Assembly: GCA_026399475.1 (NCBI GenBank)
Contig: JAPLQY010000032.1
Location: forward strand, 1 to 64,000
DNA length: 64,000 nucleotides
Reading direction: 5' to 3'
Origin: Rhodocyclales bacterium
GTDB lineage: Bacteria; Pseudomonadota; Gammaproteobacteria; Burkholderiales; Rhodocyclaceae
Part shown: piece after piece, positions 14,039-24,327 of the stretch
Position numbering within the stretch: the stretch's first letter is position 1
Layout of the letters: every line of letters starts with the position of its first letter
The notes under the pieces: generated by a model
Seen by the model: the letters and a program-made list of their open reading frames with translations, nothing else
Databases searched by the model: none
Told to the model about the DNA's origin: nothing
Translations under genes and position numbers: made by a program

Positions 14039-14458
14039 TCACCGAGTCCGATGTAGGATTCTTCGCAAACGCGCTACTAATTCGCGCCTATTGCAGGACT
14101 TCAAAAGATAGTCGTCGGCACCCAGTTCAAGCATCACAATGGCATCAATCTCGCTCATTTGGGCGCTAAGCACCACTACAGGCACATCTTTCTGCCTGCG
14201 AATCTTGCGCAACACTTCAAATCCGCTTGATCCTGCGAGTTCGTTGTCAGCAAGGATCACGAGATCGTATTTGCCTCTGATCGCATCGAGCCAACCTTGG
14301 TGGGCTTTCGGCACAAAGCTGACGACGAAGCCTTGCTCCTGAAGATAGTGGGACAGTGTCTGACAATACTCGGGGTCGTCATCGACTAGCAGTAGTTGTG
14401 GCGCGTGCTTCAAGGAATCCCTTCGTCCGAGAGAACATTGGAGTGCATCCCAATTCAA
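14039..14458 (-). CDS. Receiver-only response regulator
   Basis: A 139-residue protein consisting of one CheY-like receiver domain: acidic pocket LLLVDDDPEY, phospho-acceptor Asp in VILADNELAG, Ser in VVVLSAQM, and the conserved Lys in GADDYLLKSCNRREL (the usual Pro after Lys is Ser). It ends at LRRILHRTR, just where an OmpR-type linker would lead into a DNA-binding domain, so it is either a stand-alone receiver or a truncated OmpR-family regulator. No kinase is immediately adjacent; the nearest is at 17996-19819, which already has an NtrC-type partner. The ATG has a poor ribosome site and a slightly later start is possible. Confidence 0.72.
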   Translation of the reverse strand: MNWDALQCSLGRRDSLKHAPQLLLVDDDPEYCQTLSHYLQEQGFVVSFVPKAHQGWLDAIRGKYDLVILADNELAGSSGFEVLRKIRRQKDVPVVVLSAQMSEIDAIVMLELGADDYLLKSCNRRELVARLRRILHRTR

Positions 14459-14508
14459 CTTAGCGCTATCGAAAACGATGTACTGCGCGATTCAGCACTA
14501 CGCAAATA

Positions 14509-14544
14509 AAGCAAAAGCTGCCGGCTAACCGACAGCTTTTGCTT
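14509..14544 (-). terminator. Terminator of the multiheme cytochrome gene
   Basis: A perfect 12-bp inverted repeat (AAGCAAAAGCTG / CAGCTTTTGCTT, arms 14509-14520 and 14533-14544) with a 12-base loop lies 15 bases after the cytochrome stop codon. On the minus strand it is followed by TTTATTTG. A rho-independent terminator isolating the cytochrome gene from the receiver gene is the simplest reading. Confidence 0.75.
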
Positions 14545-14559
14545 GCTACAAAGTACGTG

Positions 14560-16476
14560 CTACAGATTCTTCGTGTCGTGGCAGGCCGCACCGCATTGGT
14601 TGGTGTAAGGAATCGGCATGGCCTTGCCCGGCTCGACGCCCTTGACACCCTTGTTGTCCTTGCGCGGGACGTCATAGACGTGCGAGCTGATGTCGTTGAC
14701 CCAGTAGTTCTTGCCATCCTTGCCGAGCATGCCCTTGCCGAAGCCGGCGCCGGTCTGCGCGGTCTTGGTGTTGTGGCAGTCGGAACAACTGATCTTGGTC
14801 ACGTCCACCGTGCACTTGGCTTTGTCCGCGAGATGTTCCTTCATGTCCTTGCGGTTCTCGTGACAAGCCGTGCACACCTCGGTCGTCTTCGGATCGTGCT
14901 TCAACTGGTGCAGCGACTTGCCATTGCCATGCGGGTCGTGGCAGTCCGAACAGGCCACCAGTTGGGTGCCGTTGCGATACTTCTTGGCCTTGATCAGGTC
15001 CGAGTAGGGCTGGTGGTGACCTTTGGAATGCAAACCGTCCGCCCAGAAGTCGGTGTCGGCACCGTCGGCCCGGGTGGTGTATTCCGTTAGGAAGCGGTTG
15101 CGCGAGGTGCCCGGCAACATCATCTTGTTGTCCTTGTTGACCGGCTGGTCGTTCTTCAGGAAACCCTGGGGCCGACTGTGGCACTGCCCGCACAACACAT
15201 CGGCACGTTCCGCCGAAAGCTTGTTGGGGCTGACGATGGTGGCCGGCATGTCGATCTCTTTTGCCTTGTCGTGAACGGAACCGGGACCATGGCAGGTTTC
15301 GCAGCCTAGGTTGAGCTCGTTGGGCTTGCCGTCGCCGTCGATGTCCATTTCGCCGTTGCGATCATTGGCGGAACCGGCGATGTAGTCGCCCTTGGCATTC
15401 TTGGCCAACGTGTAGCCGGCGTAATGGCAGGACGCGCATTCCTTGTCGAAGGACTTGCCCGGCGGCGGATCGATCAGTTTCTTGGCTTCCTCGTTATAGA
15501 ACCAGTCGGCGTGGTAGTCGCGCCAGGGCTTGCGGGTACGATCGGCAAAGCTGTCATCGCCGTTCTGGTTGAACTGGACGAAGGGGAATAGGTTAGCGCC
15601 GACGCGCACCAGATAGCGCTGCTTGTAGAGTCCGCCGCCGTAGGTCATATCGACCGTATAGGTACGTGGCTTGTCCGCAGCGTCACGCAGATTTTCGGTG
15701 CGCAGCTTGAGTTTGCCGTCGCTGTCCTTGTAGAAGTTCGCGGTGAAGCTTGCCGACGCTGCATCGGCCGGCGCCTTGGTGGCGATCTGGTACTTGTCGA
15801 AGCCGCGGCCCTTGTCGAAACCGTAGAACCAGAACTTGGTGCCGGCCATGAGCTTGTCCAGGCCCTTGTTGAACTCGGGGAAGCGCGAATGGTCCTGCAG
15901 CTTGCTCGGCTTACCAATCACGGTCATGCCCAGCCGGTGCAGGGTCTTGGTGATGTGCTTCTGATCTTCGTGGCATTCGATGCAGGCCGAACTGCCGATG
16001 TATTTGGCATCCGGCGGCACGTTCCCGGATATCTTGATCAGCATCGGCGCAGCACCCAGTTCATCGGTCCCCAGGGACTTGCGCGACTTGTCGCCACCCG
16101 GCAGGTACTTGCTGGTGGCCGGTTCGACATAAACGAAGTATTTGCCGCCAGGAACGTCGGCAAAGCTGAACTCGCCATTGTCATTGGTCTTCGCGTTCAG
16201 GTAGCGCCCGCGGTTGGCAGCCAGGCTGTCTTCCAGCGGTTCGTCGTTCGGCGAATCCGCCTTGACCTCGATCGGTGTCTTGCCCATCGTGGCGACGTCG
16301 GTGGCGGGGATCAGCCAAACTGTAGCGTTGGGTACCTTGAGGAAAGTTTCCTTGCTGCCGTCCTCGACTACGCCCTTGAATGGAGCGTTCGGGTATGTCT
16401 TGACCCCGCCGGTACAGCCGTAGATCAGGAACACGGATGCCAGCGCCAACAGGCTGCCGAAAATTGTTTTTTTCAT
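14560..16476 (-). CDS. Lipoprotein multiheme c-type cytochrome (eight heme motifs)
   Basis: A 638-residue exported electron-transfer protein. The N terminus MKKTIFGSLLALASVFLIYGC has a lipobox (LIYGC, lipidated Cys21). Residues about 30-155 resemble a carboxypeptidase-regulatory-like beta-sandwich (NDNGEFSFADVPGGKYFVYV). Seven CxxCH motifs begin at Cys165, 347, 392, 429, 509, 535 and 564, and an eighth is CX3CH (CGAACH, Cys628) close to the C terminus. The third is in GCETCHGPGSVH, the signature of cytochrome c554/DmsE-like proteins. The ATG at 16476 has AAGGGG before it. It is monocistronic, with a sigma-54 promoter (16519-16533) and terminator, next to an NtrC-type two-component system. Role: probably electron transfer in the periplasm or on a membrane surface; the acceptor is unknown. 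Confidence 0.88.
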   Translation of the reverse strand: MKKTIFGSLLALASVFLIYGCTGGVKTYPNAPFKGVVEDGSKETFLKVPNATVWLIPATDVATMGKTPIEVKADSPNDEPLEDSLAANRGRYLNAKTNDNGEFSFADVPGGKYFVYVEPATSKYLPGGDKSRKSLGTDELGAAPMLIKISGNVPPDAKYIGSSACIECHEDQKHITKTLHRLGMTVIGKPSKLQDHSRFPEFNKGLDKLMAGTKFWFYGFDKGRGFDKYQIATKAPADAASASFTANFYKDSDGKLKLRTENLRDAADKPRTYTVDMTYGGGLYKQRYLVRVGANLFPFVQFNQNGDDSFADRTRKPWRDYHADWFYNEEAKKLIDPPPGKSFDKECASCHYAGYTLAKNAKGDYIAGSANDRNGEMDIDGDGKPNELNLGCETCHGPGSVHDKAKEIDMPATIVSPNKLSAERADVLCGQCHSRPQGFLKNDQPVNKDNKMMLPGTSRNRFLTEYTTRADGADTDFWADGLHSKGHHQPYSDLIKAKKYRNGTQLVACSDCHDPHGNGKSLHQLKHDPKTTEVCTACHENRKDMKEHLADKAKCTVDVTKISCSDCHNTKTAQTGAGFGKGMLGKDGKNYWVNDISSHVYDVPRKDNKGVKGVEPGKAMPIPYTNQCGAACHDTKNL

Positions 16477-16518
16477 GATGATCCCCTTATTTGTGTAAAC
16501 CCAGCTACTGCTGGTCAC

Positions 16519-16533
16519 GCAATGTTCGTACCA
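16519..16533 (-). promoter_or_regulatory. Sigma-54 (-24/-12) promoter of the cytochrome gene
   Basis: The minus strand reads TGGTACGAACATTGC here. GG and GC are separated by exactly 10 bases, and it matches the consensus TGGCACG-N4-TTGC at all but one fixed position. It lies about 43 bases before the cytochrome ATG, leaving room for a short leader. The neighbouring response regulator has the GAFTGA motif required to activate sigma-54 polymerase. Confidence 0.78.
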
Positions 16534-16604
16534 CAACGCCTTGCGCTTATGACCGTCGTTTGGGCAGGAGATATGAAGATGTATTGCCTGATGAGTGTCG
16601 CGAT

Positions 16605-16634
16605 TTAGTGACAGGTGTCACTTATCAGTGACAG
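16605..16634. promoter_or_regulatory. Inverted repeat, likely activator site upstream of the cytochrome promoter
   Basis: GTGACA-GG-TGTCAC (16608-16621) is a perfect dyad within TTAGTGACAGGTGTCACTTA, followed by another half-site GTGACAG (16628-16634). It lies about 75-100 bases upstream of the -24 element, the usual distance for an enhancer of a sigma-54 activator, and overlaps the stop codon of the response regulator gene. A very similar dyad occurs upstream of the sensor kinase gene (19890-19912). Confidence 0.65.
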
Positions 16635-17994
16635 CTCCCCAGCGCTTCATCCGTACGTACAGGTTCTGTCGGGGGATCCCGCTGAGACGTGCCGCTTCGG
16701 ATATGTTGCCCGCTGCAGCATCGAGCAGGCGCTGAAAATAATCACGTTCGAAATCAACCCTGGCGTCCTGATAACTCAGCGCTGCGATCATTGCAGGAGT
16801 GGTAGCGTCTTGGGCGCTGGCTACAGGCTTGCCGTCCGGAAACAGGTGCAGGGTATCGATCGGGCCGCCGGTATGGAGTGCCACCGCACGCTCGATGCAG
16901 TGCTGCAGTTGGCGCACGTTGCCCTCCCAGCGGCAGCTTTCAAGCGCTTGCAGGGCGACGGGCGTCAGCGGGCCGCAGCTCTTGCCGAATTTCGCGCTGT
17001 AAAAATCCAGGAAATGCGTGGCCAGCGGCACGATGTCGCCGGCACGCTCGCGCAGCGGCGGCATGGTCACCGAGACCACGGCGATACGGTAATACAGGTC
17101 TTCGCGAAACCGCCCGGCCTTGACCTCGGCCAGCAGCGGCCGGTTGGTGGCGCAGATCAGGCGAAAATCGGCACGGCGTGCCTGGGTGCTGCCGATGCGG
17201 GTGAAGCTGTGGTCCTGCAGCACGCGCAGCAGGCTGCTCTGCAGCTTGGCGCTCATGTCGGCGATTTCGTCGAGGAACAGGTTGCCACCGTCGGCCTTCT
17301 CGAAGTAGCCGGCATTGGCCTGGCCGGCGCCGGTGAAGGCGCCTTTTTCATGGCCGAACAGCAGGCTTTCGAGCAGGGATTCCGCCAGTCCGCCGCAATT
17401 GACCTCGAGGAAAGGCTTGGTGGCGCGCGGACTCAGGGCATGGACCATCCTGGCGGCAAGCTCCTTGCCGGTGCCGCTTTCCCCTTCGAGCAGGACCGTG
17501 GTGTCGAGGCCGGCGACTTGGCGGATCTGGCCGAGGACTCTTTCCATCGCGGGCGACTGGCCGATCATGTCCGCTGCGCCCGATTCGCCGGACAAGCGGG
17601 CGCGCAGGCCATGGATCTCGCGGTAGGCGCGATCGAGTTCCAGCGCCTTGCCGATCACCGCCTCCAGCGCTTCAAGGTCTTCGAATGGCTTGGTCTGATA
17701 ATCGAAGACGCCTTCGCGCACCGCCGCCACGGCATCGCGCACGTCGGCGAAGCCGGTCATCAGTATGCCGACCAGATGCGGCCGGCGCGCGCGAAACTCG
17801 CGCAGCAGGTCGATGCCGTTGTCGCTGGGCAGGCGCTGGTCCATCAGCACCAGGTTGAAATCCTCAGCGGCGAACAGGCGGCGTGCCTCGGCGCCATCGG
17901 CGGCCAGGCTCACCTGCGCCGTTTTGGCCAGCAAGTGTTCGAACAGGATGCGGGTGTGGCGATCATCGTCGACCACGAGGATTTTTGGCAGCAT
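16618..17994 (-). CDS. Sigma-54-dependent response regulator (NtrC family)
   Basis: A 458-residue cytosolic transcription activator. Receiver domain 1-120 with phospho-acceptor Asp52 ([13 protein letters not shown]) and Lys102; AAA+ domain with Walker A GESGTGKE (171-178), the sigma-54 contact loop GAFTGA (218-223) and Walker B LFLDEI (239-244); C-terminal Fis-type helix-turn-helix ([21 protein letters not shown]). It starts 1 base after the kinase stop codon, so the two are coupled. The likely target is the adjacent multiheme cytochrome gene, which has both a -24/-12 promoter and a dyad upstream. Start [11 protein letters not shown] is chosen because the family begins there; the longer open frame overlaps the kinase gene. 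Confidence 0.93.
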
Positions 17995-17995
17995 C

Positions 17996-19819
17996 TCAGG
18001 CAGCGTCGTGTTTATGGTCGGGTGAGTCGTGCAATGAACCTGGCAGGGTATCGGGCAACGAACTTGGCAATGAATCAGGCAACCAGATCGCAATTCGCGT
18101 GCCACGCCCCGGCTCGCTGCTGACATTGACCTGCCCGTCGTGCAGCAGTGCGACGTGCTGGACGACGGGCAGGCCGAGGCCGGTGCCGTCGCTATGCGTG
18201 GTGTAGAAGGGCACGAAGATCTTTTCCAGCACATCGGGCGGCATGCCGCGGCCATGATCGCTGACGGCCAGCGACCAGCCCGCCACGCCCCGCGCCGGAT
18301 CGTCCTCGCGCGCCAGGCTGATGACGATGGCGCTGCCGTCGGTGGTGGCCTGGGCGGCATTGACCAGCAGGTTGAACAAGGCGTGGCGCAGCAGGATCGG
18401 ATCAATGGTCAGCACCACAGCTTCGTTCGGCAGATTCAGTTCGACCGGCAGGTGCTTGTTCTCGGTCTGGCGAAAAAGGAGCACCGTGTCCTCGATCAGC
18501 GCCGCCATCTGCGTCGGTTTGCTTTCGAAGGATGAGACCTTGGAAAACGCCAGCATGCGCTTGACGAAGGCGCGACAGTCTTCGCCGGAACTGCGAATCT
18601 CACCCAGCAGTTCGCGCGTGCGCACCGGATCGTCGACTCCGCGTTCGGCAAGTTGCGCCAGGTTGACCACGCCGACCAGCGGATTGTTCAACTGGTGGGC
18701 GATGCTGCCGACCATGGTGCCCAGCGCCGAGAGTTTTTCGAGCTGCAGGATGCGGCCATATTCGGCGTTGAAGCGCAGCAACTGGTGTTCGAGGTCGTGC
18801 TGGCGCCGGTAGTCGCGCTCGACGCGGTCGAGTGCAAGGTAGAACACCCCGAGTACGCCGATCGCCAACAGCAGGCTGATCGTCGTGACGGCGACGATGG
18901 ACCAGTTGAAGGTGGATTTCAGTGCACTGATGTCGCGGATCACCACCAGGTCGCCGATGTGGCGCTGGCCGGCGTCCCTTAGCGGCACGGCGGCCAGGTG
19001 CAGCGAGCGCCCTTGGTCGTCGATCTCCGCAGTGCGGCCGGCGAGCAAACGCTGCAGGGTGGAGTCGTCCAGCGCCGCGGGCAGCTGGTCCGTGGTCTGC
19101 GCCAGTGATACGTGGCTGGCAAAGCGCTCCCACGTTCCCGTGCGTTTCATCAAGGTCTGGCCGCGCTGCCATTGCTGCAGCGACACCAGGCGTTTATCGA
19201 CCAGCACCAGCATGTCCACCGCCAGGCCCTCGCGAATCTCCCTAATCAGGTGCTCGATTTCTTCGCCAATTTCGAGGTAGCCGATGACGAGGCCGTCGCT
19301 GCGCCAGGGCATCACCAGACGCAGCGTGAGCGTCCCCAGCGATCCCAGCTCCAGGCCGTGCACCGCATCCTGGCTGTCCCTCGCCTTGATCGTCGTTAGC
19401 CGGTCGATCTCGTCGCCGTACTCGTCGGGGCTGTGGAAGCGGTAGAGGTTGATCAGGTCCTGGCCGGTGAAATACAGGTGGGTGATGTGGTGCTTGTCGC
19501 GCAGGTTGGCGAACAGGGGATTCAGTTGCTGCGAAAGTGACGCGCGGTCCAGATCGCGGAGGGCGCGTTCGATGGACGGGTTGGTCATCATCGCGCGCAT
19601 TGTCGCGATCATCAGGTTGGTGTCCTTGTCCAGCTTCTGCAGGAACAGCTTTTCCACGGCGGCGGTGCGCTCGGCGATATCCTGGTCGCGGATGTCGGCC
19701 TCGACCCACAAGGCGGCAGTCGCGAACACGCCCATGATGAAGATAAGCACGAGAGCGAGCGGAGCGATGAAGCGTGCCTTGACGCGGCGGGGTTGCTTGG
19801 GCTGAGTGACTGAATTCAT
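17996..19819 (-). CDS. Membrane sensor histidine kinase of the NtrB/DctB type
   Basis: A 607-residue inner-membrane kinase. Transmembrane helix 1 spans about 18-38; a periplasmic region of roughly 265 residues (Cache-like, about 40-300) follows; helix 2 is at about 305-329. The phospho-acceptor is His375 in GSIAHQLNNPL, followed by N (LLRHALFNLLVNAAQAT), G1 (VSDHGRGMPP), F (IFVPFYTTHSDG) and G2 (GTGLGLPVV) boxes. The C-terminal tail has a degenerate short repeat (LPSSLPDTLPGSLHD). The signal is unknown; a small periplasmic ligand is likely from the domain layout. Start ATG 19819 (MNSVTQPKQPRR) gives the first helix in the normal place. Confidence 0.9.
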   Translation of the reverse strand: MNSVTQPKQPRRVKARFIAPLALVLIFIMGVFATAALWVEADIRDQDIAERTAAVEKLFLQKLDKDTNLMIATMRAMMTNPSIERALRDLDRASLSQQLNPLFANLRDKHHITHLYFTGQDLINLYRFHSPDEYGDEIDRLTTIKARDSQDAVHGLELGSLGTLTLRLVMPWRSDGLVIGYLEIGEEIEHLIREIREGLAVDMLVLVDKRLVSLQQWQRGQTLMKRTGTWERFASHVSLAQTTDQLPAALDDSTLQRLLAGRTAEIDDQGRSLHLAAVPLRDAGQRHIGDLVVIRDISALKSTFNWSIVAVTTISLLLAIGVLGVFYLALDRVERDYRRQHDLEHQLLRFNAEYGRILQLEKLSALGTMVGSIAHQLNNPLVGVVNLAQLAERGVDDPVRTRELLGEIRSSGEDCRAFVKRMLAFSKVSSFESKPTQMAALIEDTVLLFRQTENKHLPVELNLPNEAVVLTIDPILLRHALFNLLVNAAQATTDGSAIVISLAREDDPARGVAGWSLAVSDHGRGMPPDVLEKIFVPFYTTHSDGTGLGLPVVQHVALLHDGQVNVSSEPGRGTRIAIWLPDSLPSSLPDTLPGSLHDSPDHKHDAA

Positions 19820-20113
19820 GAATAGCAAGTCTGCTCCTGACTTGTACTGGTGACAACCTAACCTGGAGCCTTCCTCAAATAGCTGAGACTTAGTGTCACC
19901 CTGTGCCACTAACTCAGTCTGCGTCGTTGAGCTGCCAAAGTGGCGAGATCTCGCCGCCAAACTTTCCATGAAGGAATGGAACCTGACTACGAAAACGTGG
20001 ATTCTGGGATTGCCTAGGACTGCCCATGAACGATTTTACGCAGTGGTTACCCCGCCCGGAAACGGCCGCACGAATCCCGTAAGGAGAAGCACGTGCAGCC
20101 GATACTCAGGCGG
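19820..20113. other. Intergenic region between sensor kinase and integrase remnant
   Basis: No credible gene. It holds the operator-like dyad at 19890-19912 and a perfect 14-bp palindrome GGCGAGATCTCGCC at 19942-19955, both upstream of the kinase gene. I see no clear -24/-12 element for the kinase operon. Confidence 0.35.
19890..19912. promoter_or_regulatory. Inverted repeat upstream of the sensor kinase gene
   Basis: TTAGTGTCAC-CCT-GTGCCACTAA: 9 of 10 positions pair, and CTGAG/CTCAG flanks extend the symmetry. The half-site TTAGTGNCAC is the same as in the dyad upstream of the cytochrome promoter (16605-16625), so one regulator, most simply the response regulator encoded here, may bind both sites and autoregulate. 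Confidence 0.6.
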
Positions 20114-20191: not shown

Positions 20192-20214
20192 ATGTACTGC
20201 AGTACATAAGCTCG
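20185..20214. repeat. 30-bp perfect palindrome at the left RIT junction
   Basis: Arms CGAGCTTATGTACTG and its exact complement meet at the centre. The outer left 7 bases belong to the integrase target, the outer right 7 (AAGCTCG) are the start of the terminal inverted repeat. The 16 central bases are absent from the right end, so the left end carries extra material. Confidence 0.8.
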
Positions 20215-20242
20215 ACTATGTCCCGCACCGGACTATGTCCCG
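20208..20242 (+). repeat. Left terminal inverted repeat of the RIT element
   Basis: Begins AAGCTCGACTATGTCCCG and contains two direct copies of GGACTATGTCCCG/CGACTATGTCCCG. It matches the inverse of 23581-23615 at 32 of 35 positions; the three differences lie together between the two inner copies. Confidence 0.85.
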
Positions 20243-20339
20243 AGCGTACTTGACGCCCTGATCTACCGTGGGCTGGCGACGATTTCGCTGAACATTGTCA
20301 TCCTCTTTGCCGGGCAATTCCGCCCGCAAGGAGATCATC

Positions 20340-21587
20340 ATGGAGCATTCCTACGACATAGCCGATGCGCGGGTCCGCGCGATCGGCGGCACGTCTGCTG
20401 AGCACCTCGTCGCGTTCGTAACCTGGCTGGGAAGCCAACAATACTCGTCGGGCTACGCCTGTATTGTGGCGAGACACGCATTGGCCTTTGGCCGATGGTG
20501 CGAAGGGCGTCGTATTGACGTTGAAGCACTGACTGACGACGACATCACACGATTTCAGCGCAGTCGCGCCCGGCGTCGCTCACGACGCCCTGAGACGCGC
20601 CGCCAGGAGCGACAAGCATTGACCCTGCTGCTTCTCTTTCTGCGTGAGCAAGGGCTCTGCGCTGCTGCTGCGTCATGCACGACAGATGTCGACCGCGTCA
20701 CCGCCGACTTCGCGCAACACCTACAACGCAATCAAGGGCTGGCGGCGGCCACCGTTGACACCTACACGAGGGTGGCCCGACAGTTCCTGGTCTGGCGCTT
20801 TGGGCAAGCAGAGATCTGCCTGCATGACCTTCGTCCGAGCGACCCTATCGCGTTCATTCGACAGGAGTCGAGGCGCATGGCACCCCCAGCCGTGAAGGTT
20901 GTTGCCAATGCGCTGAGGTCCTTCCTGCGCTTCTGCGAGTTTCGTGGCGAGGTCCCCGCCGGACTCGGCGGCAGCGTACCGTCCGTCGCCACCTGGACGA
21001 CCACGCCGCCGATTCCGAAGGCGATCGCTGCCGAGCACGCACAGCGCGCCATCGACAGCTGCAACCGATTGACTGCGGTCGGACTCCGTGATCGTGCTGT
21101 ACTGCTGCTTCTGGCACGCCTCGGGCTGCGCGCCTGCGAGATCATCAGACTGACTCTGGACGACATCGACTGGGACCAAGCGCAACTGCGCATTCACGGC
21201 AAGGGGGGCCGGCAGGGCCTGCTGCCACTGCCCGCCGATGTTGGCACTGCCATTGCCGCATATCTGCAGCACGGTCGACCGACCTGTGGGGACCGGCACC
21301 TCTTCCTTCGCTCCATGGCGCCGATCCGCGGTCTGCTGGCCGGATCCGACGGCGTGGGTTCAATCGTCCGCTACGCACTTAAGCGGGCCAAGGCCGACGC
21401 ACCGCATCGTGGCTCGCATCAGTTCCGACATGCCTTGGCCGCTCACATGCTGCGGCAAGGCGCGTCGCTGCCCGAGATCGGCCAGGTGCTGCGCCACCGC
21501 AGCCCGCAGACCACCAGCATCTACGCCAAGGTGGATCTGGACGCGCTGCGGACCGTGGTCATGGCCTGGCCCGGGAGTGCGCGATGA
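20340..21587 (+). CDS. ritA: RIT tyrosine recombinase A
   Basis: A 415-residue site-specific recombinase, first of the trio. An N-terminal SAM-like core-binding domain (about 110-210) precedes the catalytic domain: first Arg in GLRACEIIRLTLDDID, HxxR in HQFRHALAAHML, and His then the Tyr nucleophile in LRHRSPQTTSIYAKVD. I start at ATG 20340, preceded by AAGGAG, not at the upstream in-frame ATG. The stop overlaps the ritB start (ATGA). All three RIT proteins are thought to act together in transposition of the element; the individual roles are not resolved. Confidence 0.88.
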   Translation: MEHSYDIADARVRAIGGTSAEHLVAFVTWLGSQQYSSGYACIVARHALAFGRWCEGRRIDVEALTDDDITRFQRSRARRRSRRPETRRQERQALTLLLLFLREQGLCAAAASCTTDVDRVTADFAQHLQRNQGLAAATVDTYTRVARQFLVWRFGQAEICLHDLRPSDPIAFIRQESRRMAPPAVKVVANALRSFLRFCEFRGEVPAGLGGSVPSVATWTTTPPIPKAIAAEHAQRAIDSCNRLTAVGLRDRAVLLLLARLGLRACEIIRLTLDDIDWDQAQLRIHGKGGRQGLLPLPADVGTAIAAYLQHGRPTCGDRHLFLRSMAPIRGLLAGSDGVGSIVRYALKRAKADAPHRGSHQFRHALAAHMLRQGASLPEIGQVLRHRSPQTTSIYAKVDLDALRTVVMAWPGSAR

Positions 21588-22522
21588 ACACCTTGCGCGA
21601 AGCCCTGCAGGAATACGTCGAACTGCGCCGGGGGCTGGGCTACAAAATGCACGACGAAGGGCTGTTGTTGCCGCGGTTCGTCAGCTTCATGGAAGAGCAC
21701 TGCGCCGAACACATCAGCGTCCGACTGGCGGTTGAGTGGGCTCAAGGTGCACCAGTACAACCCGCCGAGTGGGCCCGACGGCTTTGCTTCGTGCGCGGCT
21801 TCGCCCGCCATCGCAGCGCCACCGACAGTCGCACGGAGATACCTCCGATCGGCCTATTGCCACACCGATCCACGCGCGCCAGACCGCACATGTACACCGA
21901 GGACGAGATCAGGCGCCTGTTGGATGCGGCGTTGGAACTTCCTGTGGCTTGGCCGTCGACGCCGCTGCGCCCGTGGGTGTTCCACGGCCTGATCGGCCTA
22001 CTCAGTGTGACGGGCATGCGCCTGTCCGAAGCGCTGAATCTCAAGCTTGCCGACGTCGACCTAACGCAGGCGGTGCTGACGATTCGTGGCGCCAAGTTCG
22101 GCCAGTGGCGGTTGGTGCCGATCCATCCGTCTACCAGCGCGATCCTGGCCGATTACATCGAACGACGCACGAAGTTCTTCTGCCACCCGGTTTCCACCTA
22201 TCTGTTCGTCTCGCGTCGTGGCACTCGCCTCGACGGTGGTCATGTTCATCGTACCTTCTACACGCTGTCACGGGCCACAGGCTTGCGTGCGGTGGGTTCG
22301 AGCAAGGGGCCGCGGCTGCACGACTTCAGGCATCGCTTCGCCGTTCAGACGTTGATACGCTGGTACCAGACGAGCAAGGAACCTGGGCGCGAGATGCCGT
22401 TGCTGTCGACCTACCTCGGGCATGTCTGCATATCCGGCACCTACTGGTACCTGAGCGCCAACCCCGAGTTGATGGCCCAAGCGATGGCCCGGCTGGAGCG
22501 GCGCTGGGGAGAGTCGTCATGA
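21584..22522 (+). CDS. ritB: RIT tyrosine recombinase B
   Basis: A 312-residue tyrosine recombinase, middle gene of the trio, overlapping both neighbours by 4 bases (ATGA at each junction), which implies translational coupling and a fixed ratio. Catalytic residues: Arg in GMRLSEALNLKLADVD, HxxR in HDFRHRFAVQTLI, then His and the Tyr region in LGHVCISGTYWYLS. It begins MNTLREALQEYVELRRGLGYK, the typical start of this subfamily. Confidence 0.88.
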   Translation: MNTLREALQEYVELRRGLGYKMHDEGLLLPRFVSFMEEHCAEHISVRLAVEWAQGAPVQPAEWARRLCFVRGFARHRSATDSRTEIPPIGLLPHRSTRARPHMYTEDEIRRLLDAALELPVAWPSTPLRPWVFHGLIGLLSVTGMRLSEALNLKLADVDLTQAVLTIRGAKFGQWRLVPIHPSTSAILADYIERRTKFFCHPVSTYLFVSRRGTRLDGGHVHRTFYTLSRATGLRAVGSSKGPRLHDFRHRFAVQTLIRWYQTSKEPGREMPLLSTYLGHVCISGTYWYLSANPELMAQAMARLERRWGESS

Positions 22523-23517
22523 GTGGCCAACCCAACTTCGGTGCTCTCCTGGAGCGGTTCTTCACCCAGCGCCTGATGCAGCAGCGCCGGGCCAGTGCGC
22601 ACACGATTGCCTCGTACCGCGACACCTTCAAGATGCTGCTGCAATTCGTGCAGGGGCGTCTGAGCAAAGCGCCTTCGGACCTGGCGCTGGACGACATTGA
22701 TGCGCCGCTGGTGATGGCTTTCCTTGACGAGATGGAACGGGCACGCGGCATCACTGCCCGCACGCGCAACCTGCGCTTGACGGCTGTGCACTCATTCTTC
22801 CGCTTTGCGGCCTTCGAGGCGCCGACGCACTCGGCGCAGATCCAGCGCGTTCTGGCCATTCCGGCCAAGCGGTTCACGCGTACGCTAGTGCCATTCCTCA
22901 GCCGACAGGAAGTCGACGCGCTGCTGGCTGCGCCGGATCAGCGAAGCTGGTCGGGTCGCCGTGATCACGCATTGCTGCTACTGGCTGTGCAGACCGGGTT
23001 GAGGCTGTCGGAGCTGACAAGCCTGCAGCATGAGGATCTGCACGTCGGCGTTGGTGCCCACGTTCGGGTCATCGGCAAGGGACGCAAAGAGCGGTGCACG
23101 CCACTGACCAAGAATACGCGCGCAGTGCTGGCCGCGTGGGCACGAGAGCCGCTGCTGACCCAGGGCCAACCGTTGTTCCCCAACGCACGCGGTGGCAATC
23201 TAAGTTCCCACGGCGTGCACTACCTGCTCAACAAGCACGTCAGAACGGCCGCTGTGAAGTGCTCGTCACTGAACAGCAAACGTGTGAGCCCGCACGTGTT
23301 GAGGCACACGACGGCTATGGACTTGCTGCAAGAGGGCGTTGAGCAAGCGAACATCGCGATGTGGCTCGGGCATGAGTCGATCGAGACGACGCAGATCTAT
23401 CTGGATGCCGACTTGGCGATGAAGCAGGCCGTTCTCGACAAGACGACGCCACCAGAGGGCAAACCCGGCCGGTATCGGCCCGATGATCCGCTACTCGCGT
23501 TCCTCAAGTGCTTGTAG
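22519..23517 (+). CDS. ritC: RIT tyrosine recombinase C
   Basis: A 332-residue tyrosine recombinase, last of the trio. N-terminal core-binding domain (about 10-105), then catalytic motifs GLRLSELTSLQHEDL (Arg), GKGRKERCTPL (beta-hairpin Lys), HVLRHTTAMDLLQEG (HxxR), WLGHESIETTQIYLDAD (His and Tyr nucleophile). The true start is ATG 22519, overlapping the ritB stop; the same frame is open far upstream inside ritB, but that stretch is shadow. The gene ends 64 bases before the right inverted repeat. Confidence 0.88.
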   Translation: MSGQPNFGALLERFFTQRLMQQRRASAHTIASYRDTFKMLLQFVQGRLSKAPSDLALDDIDAPLVMAFLDEMERARGITARTRNLRLTAVHSFFRFAAFEAPTHSAQIQRVLAIPAKRFTRTLVPFLSRQEVDALLAAPDQRSWSGRRDHALLLLAVQTGLRLSELTSLQHEDLHVGVGAHVRVIGKGRKERCTPLTKNTRAVLAAWAREPLLTQGQPLFPNARGGNLSSHGVHYLLNKHVRTAAVKCSSLNSKRVSPHVLRHTTAMDLLQEGVEQANIAMWLGHESIETTQIYLDADLAMKQAVLDKTTPPEGKPGRYRPDDPLLAFLKCL

Positions 23518-23580
23518 CGCAGCCACCTATGTCCCGCGAAGTGCATGTGCATGCCCGGCCATCGGCGTTTGCATGGGCTG

Positions 23581-23615
23581 CGGGACATAGTCCGACTCGG
23601 GACATAGTCGAGCTT
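23581..23615 (-). repeat. Right terminal inverted repeat of the RIT element
   Basis: Inverse of the left repeat (32 of 35). Its last 7 bases, CGAGCTT, also serve as the target repeat and as part of the integrase reading frame. Just inside, CTATGTCCCGC at 23527-23537 pairs with GCGGGACATAG at 23580-23590 to form a larger hairpin, so the right end carries three copies of the core motif. Confidence 0.82.
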
Positions 23616-24152
23616 GCTATGACCAAGCAAGAGTTGAACAGCCCGCAGGTTTTTCGTGCGTCTGTAGATCAGTGTTGCCTTGGTCCGCCGCATTGTGTGC
23701 GTGCCGTAGACCGTCGGATCGAGTCCGATGGCGGCAACCCACTGATGCACGATACGGGCGTACTGCCGCGTCGAAACATGAGCAGACTTGGTGAGGCGAC
23801 TCGGAAACAGGCATTGCTCCGGTTTCAATTTCGCCTTCTCGATCCACGCTGTGACGGCGGCCCGCGTCGGCTCCGTCAGCTCGAACTGCACTGGCCGTTG
23901 CGTTTTTCGCTGTACGACCATCGCACGTGCCAAAACCTTGCTGCCGTGTGTGATGTCCCGAACATGCAGATTAACCAGGTCGCAACCCCGCAGCTTGCTG
24001 TCTATCGCGAGGTTGAACATCGCAAGGTCTCGAACCTGATGTTCGTTCTGAAGTTGAATTCGGATTGCCCAGATGTCCTTCGGCTTCAGCGGTGGTTTCT
24101 GACCTACCAGCTTGCCTTTGTTCCAGGGTTCCCAGTGACGAGTAGATTCCAT
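23609..24152 (-). pseudogene. N-terminal part of tyrosine integrase, disrupted by the RIT element
   Basis: From MESTRHWEPWNKGKLVG at 24152, about 181 residues are intact, ending at LLLGHSKL. The catalytic domain is recognisable: Arg in DSKLRGCDLVNLHVRDI, HTMRRTKATLIYRR (HxxR), and LLLGHSKL before the break. Downstream the frame runs on into RIT DNA (DYVPSRTMSRSP) and is meaningless. The missing Tyr-bearing end is at 20114-20191. This type of about 205-residue integrase is common in proteobacterial mobile DNA; its own element cannot be delimited here. Confidence 0.85.
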
Positions 24153-24327
24153 GACAGACTCCTTCGTTGTTGATCGGAGTCTGATTGTTCTACTTCTAAG
24201 CGACGGGCGGTTATCGGATTGGATGCTGGGTGCGTACAATCGGCAATCAGCAGCCTATCAACCGGCCGAACCGAATGGCCATTCTCATTGGGTTTGCCGA
24301 CATCAGACGCTTGTGATCGGCCTCACT

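Follow-up and report, generated by a model that had tools for sequence, protein, structure and literature searches.

Within a 64,000-nucleotide (nt) stretch of DNA from a Rhodocyclales bacterium (contig JAPLQY010000032.1, positions 1 to 64,000; hereafter the window), we analyzed a compact minus-strand locus that encodes a sensor histidine kinase, a response regulator and a c-type cytochrome lipoprotein with eight heme motifs, and that contains a set of regulatory sites between the latter two genes (Table 1). The kinase and the regulator are encoded on the same strand, with the regulator ATG located 1 base pair (bp) past the kinase stop codon. The regulator combines a receiver domain, an AAA+ domain in which the GAFTGA motif can be read in translation, and a Fis-type helix-turn-helix domain, that is, the composition of NtrC-type two-component regulators, and the adjacent same-strand gene supplies the histidine kinase (HisKA and HATPase_c domains) typical of such systems, so that the two proteins are predicted to form a cognate pair. 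The other hallmark of these systems, a palindromic enhancer upstream of a -24/-12 promoter, is recognizable in the sequence as well, and rpoN is present in the source genome. A first-pass annotation of this DNA had already described the lipoprotein with eight heme motifs, the promoter and the NtrC-type pair with nothing else in the interval, and all of this is borne out by the domain assignments, translations and comparisons described below, whereas the tandem enhancer (16596-16633, 38 bp) had been missed.

The promoter-type site ends 41 nt upstream of the cytochrome ATG, and an equally good match arises in just 1% of 300 shuffled versions of the 160 nt that precede the cytochrome gene. The enhancer consists of two copies of the palindrome TGTCAC-N6-GTGACA at the end of the regulator gene; box 2 and the promoter are non-coding in the window. 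A pattern of one and a half boxes (at most two mismatches) matches the window solely at the tandem site, once per strand, with an expectation of 0.01. Directly 3' of the cytochrome stop codon lies a terminator-like hairpin, which points to a transcript of this gene alone, and a stretch resembling AGGxGAT, as found in the ribosome-binding region of the window, precedes the ATG of many homologous cytochromes.

Table 1. Genes, protein regions and predicted regulatory sites of the kinase-regulator-cytochrome locus in the window
Feature	Position	Strand	Basis and remarks
Sensor histidine kinase, 607 amino acids	17996..19819	-	Pfam: dCache_3 (periplasmic sensor), HisKA, HATPase_c
NtrC-type response regulator, 458 amino acids	16618..17994	-	Pfam: Response_reg PF00072, Sigma54_activat PF00158, HTH_8 PF02954
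Enhancer box 1, TGTCACTGATAAGTGACA	16616..16633	-	TGTCAC-N6-GTGACA, perfect 6-bp arms; overlaps regulator stop codon
Enhancer box 2, TGTCACTAAATCGCGACA	16596..16613	-	20 bp from box 1; 1 mismatch
Sigma-54 type -24/-12 promoter TGGTACG-AACA-TTGCG, TGGTACGAACATTGCG	16518..16533	-	2 mismatches to TGGCACGN4TTGCW
Ribosome-binding region before ATG, AAGGGGATCATC	16477..16488	-	Sequence
Octaheme c-type cytochrome lipoprotein, 638 amino acids	14560..16476	-	Lipobox-type Cys21; heme motifs counted in translation
Cytochrome N-terminal beta-sandwich	about residues 31-150		Predicted model/Foldseek
Cytochrome heme motifs	residues 165, 347, 392, 429, 509, 535, 564, 628		
Terminator-like hairpin, 16-bp stem, 4-nt loop	14509..14544	-	Fold of 14495-14570: -34.4 kcal/mol, z -4.57

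One scan of genome contigs for homologues of the cytochrome yielded 24 loci, from Rhodocyclales or Sulfuritalea, Betaproteobacteria, Polaromonas, Rhodoferax, Burkholderiales, Ramlibacter, Chromatiaceae, Nitrospirae and Desulfobulbaceae. A kinase of the same sensor type (51-88% identity over the sensor part) and the regulator (71-91%) lie directly upstream of the cytochrome gene in 10 of these loci, so that the association noted by the first-pass annotation in a single genome clearly recurs. Three more loci (L022, L025, L026) carry a regulator of the same clade (about 55-57% identity) with either a different kinase or no kinase detected, with a porin gene intervening between regulator and cytochrome in one of them; two Nitrospirae loci have a regulator that is 38-39% identical; and for nine loci, four of which have less than 1.2 kb of upstream sequence, no such regulator was found in the available DNA. 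In L026 (5415-7908), a sigma-54 site is followed by a porin gene and then by the octaheme gene, which hints at a porin-cytochrome pairing.

The regulatory sites were compared across 31 cytochrome loci, namely the window, 23 of the 24 loci and seven from other genomes, with a sigma-54 site accepted at up to three mismatches within 160 nt and an enhancer box at up to two mismatches within 320 nt (L019 starts inside the gene and was omitted; L009 and L061 represent one contig, as do L012 and L063, and each of these contigs entered the count once). Counted as unlinked were, among others, L005 and L010, with 245 and 963 nt of upstream sequence, L020 and L023, with the 38-39% identical regulators, and L026, where the sigma-54 site precedes the porin gene. 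The sigma-54 site was detected in 18 of 18 regulator-linked octaheme loci versus 2 of 13 unlinked ones (Fisher test, 9e-7), and the enhancer box in 16 of 18 versus none of 13 (5e-7), although these values ignore the relatedness of the loci, which share ancestry, and thus overstate the certainty. The two unlinked loci with a sigma-54 site are L059, an additional copy from a genome in which the linked form is present too, and L023 from Nitrospirae, with the distant regulator. A single promoter match is weak, and it is this comparison that makes the promoter convincing. In L004 and L008, where kinase, regulator, enhancer and promoter are all missing, the octaheme gene directly adjoins a gene for a DNA polymerase III alpha-like protein. 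The latter gene also flanks the kinase in L007, L009 and L011; having been found both beside octaheme genes that lack the pair and beside other pairs, it was rejected as a functional partner.

The same regulatory arrangement precedes other heme proteins. Using the sensor part of the kinase as the query against 297 genomes of the family, we detected some match in 69, and matches with 57-100% identity in 23. Behind the regulator, the first heme gene encodes the octaheme protein in five of these 23 genomes (G000, the source assembly, G069, G117, G256 and G270, with the G270 gene cut by the contig end), an EB_dh-type heme protein of 438-484 amino acids with one CxxCH motif in 11, and a heptaheme cytochrome in five (L110, L113, L115, L117, L118); in the other two (L104, L108), the contig ends before the cargo. 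The EB_dh class was assigned by Pfam (PF09459) in L105, L112 and L121; by BLAST, the ten proteins from loci other than L105 are 42-86% identical to the L105 protein. In nine of the 11 EB_dh loci, a monoheme cytochrome comes next, followed by a protein of approximately 660 amino acids with eight CxxCH motifs and a b-type membrane part; in L112 and L121, a tetraheme gene is next after the EB_dh gene. All five heptaheme loci continue with genes for a cytochrome b and an EB_dh protein of another kind. L122 (sensor identity 37%), which is without a clade regulator, stands outside this tally. The first-pass annotation had treated the layout as belonging to one cytochrome; this idea is not supported, given that genes for other heme proteins come after the regulator in 16 of the 23 same-sensor genomes. 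A paralogous kinase-regulator pair (L080, 8226-15090 on contig C63 of G000), with a regulator 56% identical to that of the window, is located beside genes for a porin-like protein and an EB_dh heme protein, and has a DNA polymerase III alpha-like gene as a neighbor.

Altogether, 45 regulators were tabulated, of which 40 belong to the clade (at least 54% identity) and five are distant (about 38-40%); in homologous loci, kinases with the same sensor type as the window kinase are encoded beside clade regulators. When 953,143 bases were scanned for pairs of boxes with a spacing of 20 bp and at most 6 mismatches in 24 positions, 38 matches were obtained: 37 mark the ends of 37 of the 40 clade regulators, and none lies at the five distant regulators. 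The remaining match is in L112, where a second kinase of the same family is inserted between the regulator and the EB_dh gene, and is located before the EB_dh gene, behind that second kinase; there were none elsewhere, and five mononucleotide shuffles of the 953,143 bases gave no matches. A sigma-54 match (at most three mismatches) is present within 400 nt downstream of 39 of the 40 clade regulators; L104 has only 59 nt of downstream sequence. In a phylogenetic tree of 42 regulators (L020 and L023 as the outgroup; L104 and L108, whose cargo is cut off, unlabelled; L026 and L065 labelled octaheme; the second regulator of L006 and the two of L059 omitted), the 30 same-sensor rows require six changes among the three cargo types, where two changes would suffice. 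The octaheme label requires three changes among these 30 rows, with at least two forced by starred branches, and five (at least three forced) among all 38 rows with a cargo label; the direction of these changes cannot be read from the tree, and some may be losses.

From these comparisons, it appears likely that the locus is a betaproteobacterial control cassette that consists of the kinase, the regulator, the tandem enhancer at the regulator stop codon and the sigma-54 promoter, followed by an exchangeable heme-protein operon, in this case an octaheme protein for terminal electron transfer. The parts, their order, the conservation of the enhancer and the differing cargoes are directly readable in the sequences; for the mode of action, we propose a tentative scheme. 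The dCache_3 kinase would sense a periplasmic condition and phosphorylate the regulator, which would bind both boxes, loop to the RNA polymerase-sigma-54 complex approximately 100 bp downstream and open the promoter, and in the window the octaheme lipoprotein would be transcribed alone as the cargo. Electrons from the quinone pool would reach the octaheme lipoprotein by way of a multiheme c/cytochrome b protein in the membrane and then a small monoheme cytochrome, and would pass on to an acceptor.

Several observations weigh against this interpretation. Three clade regulators (L025, L026, L080) lack the tandem box, and one of the five distant regulators (L023) also has a sigma-54 match downstream. 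Sigma-54 matches with two or three mismatches are individually weak: the window contains 19 promoter-type words with up to two mismatches versus 15.6 expected. Box 1 overlaps regulator codons, which is a second reason for the difference between linked and unlinked loci at this site, and the helical phasing of the enhancer-promoter distances is not significant (p 0.09, seven distance classes). Finally, the AlphaFold model of the cytochrome is poor in the heme region (mean predicted local distance difference test score 50), and the window copy of the octaheme gene has no electron-partner genes beside it. An additional sigma-54-like word with one mismatch (18104-18089, minus strand) lies inside the kinase gene at its 3' end, ahead of the regulator gene, and recurs in many relatives at kinase codons (G-T-R-I-A in the window); it was omitted from the parts of the cassette because coding constraint and an internal promoter are not separable here.

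The predicted role of the octaheme protein follows from its heme motifs and from its neighbors in other genomes. Seven of the motifs are CxxCH and one is CxxxCH (CGAACH); the eighth heme site is an ordinary CxxCH in all three Nitrospirae homologues aligned, which indicates that eight is the right count. Each of the eight motifs ends in His, and an alignment of 20 sequences shows ten more invariant His residues outside the motifs; with these, every heme could be bis-His ligated, which favors a carrier over an enzyme with an open heme. The lipobox-type Cys suggests that the protein is lipidated, and it is probably located in the outer membrane. In G069, two genes follow the octaheme gene, one for a monoheme cytochrome and one for a membrane protein of the multiheme c/cytochrome b kind, and the same two kinds of genes follow a second octaheme gene in the source assembly (L057, 10054-11394, at the end of contig C17 of G000), which is 76% identical, is cut by the contig end and may be either a real paralogue or a sequence from a contaminating strain (assembly contamination 9%). 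On contig C106, the monoheme and multiheme c/b genes lie beside a gene that by eye is molybdopterin oxidoreductase-like. These monoheme and multiheme partners share 53-62% identity with those of the L105 EB_dh protein, so the octaheme and EB_dh proteins have the same kind of neighbors, and terminal electron transfer is the likely function of the octaheme lipoprotein. The description of the cytochrome as a single electron carrier, given by the first-pass annotation, thus fits the window locally and fails in G069, where the two partner genes follow.

It is possible, if doubtful, that the octaheme protein is itself an enzyme, namely a terminal reductase with a substrate-binding heme, related to the NrfA/OcwA lineage, and that the kinase senses its substrate. 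Such a role would fit the high conservation of the protein (57% identity between the window cytochrome and the Desulfobulbaceae homologue, with many invariant non-heme residues). It would also fit the profile matches among solved structures, of which the best is 6i5b (526 amino acids, E 5.7e-10, best stretch residues 389-570), listed as an uncharacterized protein, which we take to be the nonaheme terminal reductase OcwA of Thermincola, and the next are two NrfA chains (E 6e-4 and 8e-4). However, all these matches cover only part of the cytochrome, the heme number presumably differs from that of 6i5b, the invariant His residues are sufficient for all hemes to be six-coordinate, and the predicted model provides no confident fold. 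The sole Foldseek match with E below 0.001 is 3qec (PA1324), of the type of the N-terminal beta-sandwich, from which no functional claim can be drawn. The cytochrome also falls short of the curated cut-offs of the DmsE-type decaheme family TIGR03508 (49.8 versus 192.2 bits) and of the GSU2203 family NF041028 (66 versus 325).

A second alternative, which we regard as unlikely, is that the pair runs a wider regulon, for example in general electron-acceptor or redox control, with the cytochrome as one target among others, in which case the term cassette would overstate the self-containment of the locus. The window site is the sole exact enhancer match in the 4.2 Mb assembly, which fits the dedicated control postulated at first pass; single boxes with at most one mismatch occur at five places in the assembly, two of them at the cassette and three elsewhere, versus two in the control. 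Eight other genomes contain 12 off-cassette near-matches at the same threshold (off-cassette/control: G069 4/1, G073 1/0, G137 2/2, G193 0/0, G289 1/1, G048 1/1, G100 2/5, G046 1/0), in excess of the control in three genomes (G069, G073, G046) and at or below it in five. Additional targets are suggested by G069, with five single-box matches, one of them the cassette, versus one in the reversed control; furthermore, L059, the second octaheme copy in this genome, has a sigma-54 site and no adjacent clade regulator, the region upstream of the octaheme copy on C17 is cut off, and weaker boxes would escape the scan. Nevertheless, L059 lacks the enhancer, and the ten near-matches inspected (the other two are one each in G137 and G100) all lie within open frames of at least 200 codons, with neither a second box 20 bp off (at least 7 mismatches in 24) nor a sigma-54 match (at most two mismatches) within 300 nt. 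Finally, it is most improbable that an orphan two-component system merely happens to precede an unrelated cytochrome, the neighborhood being held together by slow genome change: sigma-54-like words are indeed common in GC-rich DNA, and the DNA polymerase III alpha-like gene is likewise common to several relatives without a functional reason, but the gene order is kept across Rhodocyclales and Rhodoferax/Polaromonas loci despite different outer neighbors, enhancer and promoter co-occur with linkage, and the pair-less octaheme genes beside the polymerase gene are without either site.

The surroundings of the cassette vary. Past the cytochrome hairpin in the window lies a gene for a single-domain response regulator without an output domain (14039-14458, minus strand, 139 amino acids), outside the interval for which the first-pass annotation recorded nothing else. 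Directly upstream of the kinase, three successive tyrosine recombinase genes (20295-21587, 21584-22522, 22519-23517) are flanked by 35-nt inverted repeats (20208-20242 and 23581-23615, 91% complementary); the segment 20208-23615 is presumably a recombinase-in-trio (RIT) element. One end of it lies inside an open reading frame that by eye is integrase-like (23397-24239, minus strand) and that the element may interrupt. A search of an anti-phage library with the three recombinases and one neighboring open reading frame returned no matches. In the Rhodoferax, Polaromonas and Burkholderiales loci L013-L018, a GAF-HTH_8 regulator and a molybdate-type ATP-binding cassette (ABC) transporter are encoded upstream of the kinase, and behind the octaheme gene, five of these six loci encode a ferredoxin and a tungsten-type aldehyde oxidoreductase (clustering, with Pfam on L015). 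By clustering, the association with the oxidoreductase and the transporter was found only in Rhodoferax/Polaromonas loci, and we consider it lineage synteny. In the Nitrospirae locus L023 (6779-20341), a kinase, the distant regulator and the octaheme gene are accompanied by another kinase-receiver pair and by four additional cytochrome genes of multiheme type, two of them assigned by Pfam.

Sigma-54 control of an adjacent cytochrome operon is already known; the new part is the conserved cartridge with exchanged cargo. Azospira and Dechloromonas also belong to Rhodocyclales, and in Geobacter the sigma-54 regulator of cbcBA is BccR, a name that was not found in the literature searched. One of the closest systems is DVU3142-ohcBAC of Desulfovibrio vulgaris, in which an octaheme cytochrome operon is predicted to be under the control of an adjacent sigma-54 activator that acts via conserved binding sites and a sigma-54 promoter; one genome in that study lacks two of the three ohc cargo genes and retains the control of the third (PMC4641369, as far as the accessible text goes). 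DVU3142 is listed there as a one-component activator, is divergent and has no kinase in the accessible text, whereas the window regulator has a receiver domain and is encoded on the same strand as the cytochrome; the ohcBAC cargo includes the membrane partners OhcB and OhcC, and OhcA and the window protein can be likened by description only. The PcrP/PcrS/PcrR system of the perchlorate reduction island in Azospira and its relatives includes a kinase and a regulator that are presumed to control a respiratory operon together with RpoN (PMC5845722, PMC4623255). In the main group, pcrS and pcrR are on different strands (PMC4623255), unlike the same-strand pair of the window; additionally, the Pcr system has a third protein, PcrP, its target is the perchlorate reductase, and the accessible parts of the two papers describe no enhancer. 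Nor is the tandem box mentioned for DVU3142-ohcBAC or PcrPSR in the accessible text of the three papers (PMC4641369, PMC5845722, PMC4623255). The statement at first pass that no named system has this layout has to be qualified, in that these two systems, although neither has this gene orientation, are close in kind. CbcL of Geobacter sulfurreducens, with nine periplasmic c hemes and a membrane b-type domain, is associated with low-potential Fe(III) and electrode reduction in the available text of PMC9129911, and resembles, by domain plan only, the membrane partner encoded next to the octaheme genes of G069 and contig C17. The accessible text of PMC12316311 does not contain the word cytochrome. 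Among the titles and abstract openings listed in literature searches, there was no description of the cassette or of the octaheme family, which is not proof of absence.

With somewhat less assurance than for the cassette itself, we favor the view that a fixed sigma-54 'cartridge' has been re-used in betaproteobacteria with at least three heme cargoes, namely the octaheme lipoprotein, the EB_dh protein with monoheme and multiheme c/b proteins, and the heptaheme cytochrome with cytochrome b and the other EB_dh protein. To meet one sensed condition, different lineages would then use alternative terminal electron-transfer proteins, and the octaheme protein would be an uncharacterized terminal redox protein for that condition. 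The cassette provides a handle on unassigned multiheme cytochromes, the roles of which are difficult to predict, because the sensor common to these loci predicts a response of different heme proteins to one signal, and the 38-bp tandem enhancer can serve as a searchable tag for new members that requires no cargo homology. Once identified, the sensor ligand would give a physiological context to many uncharacterized electron-transfer operons of bacteria from groundwater and sediment.

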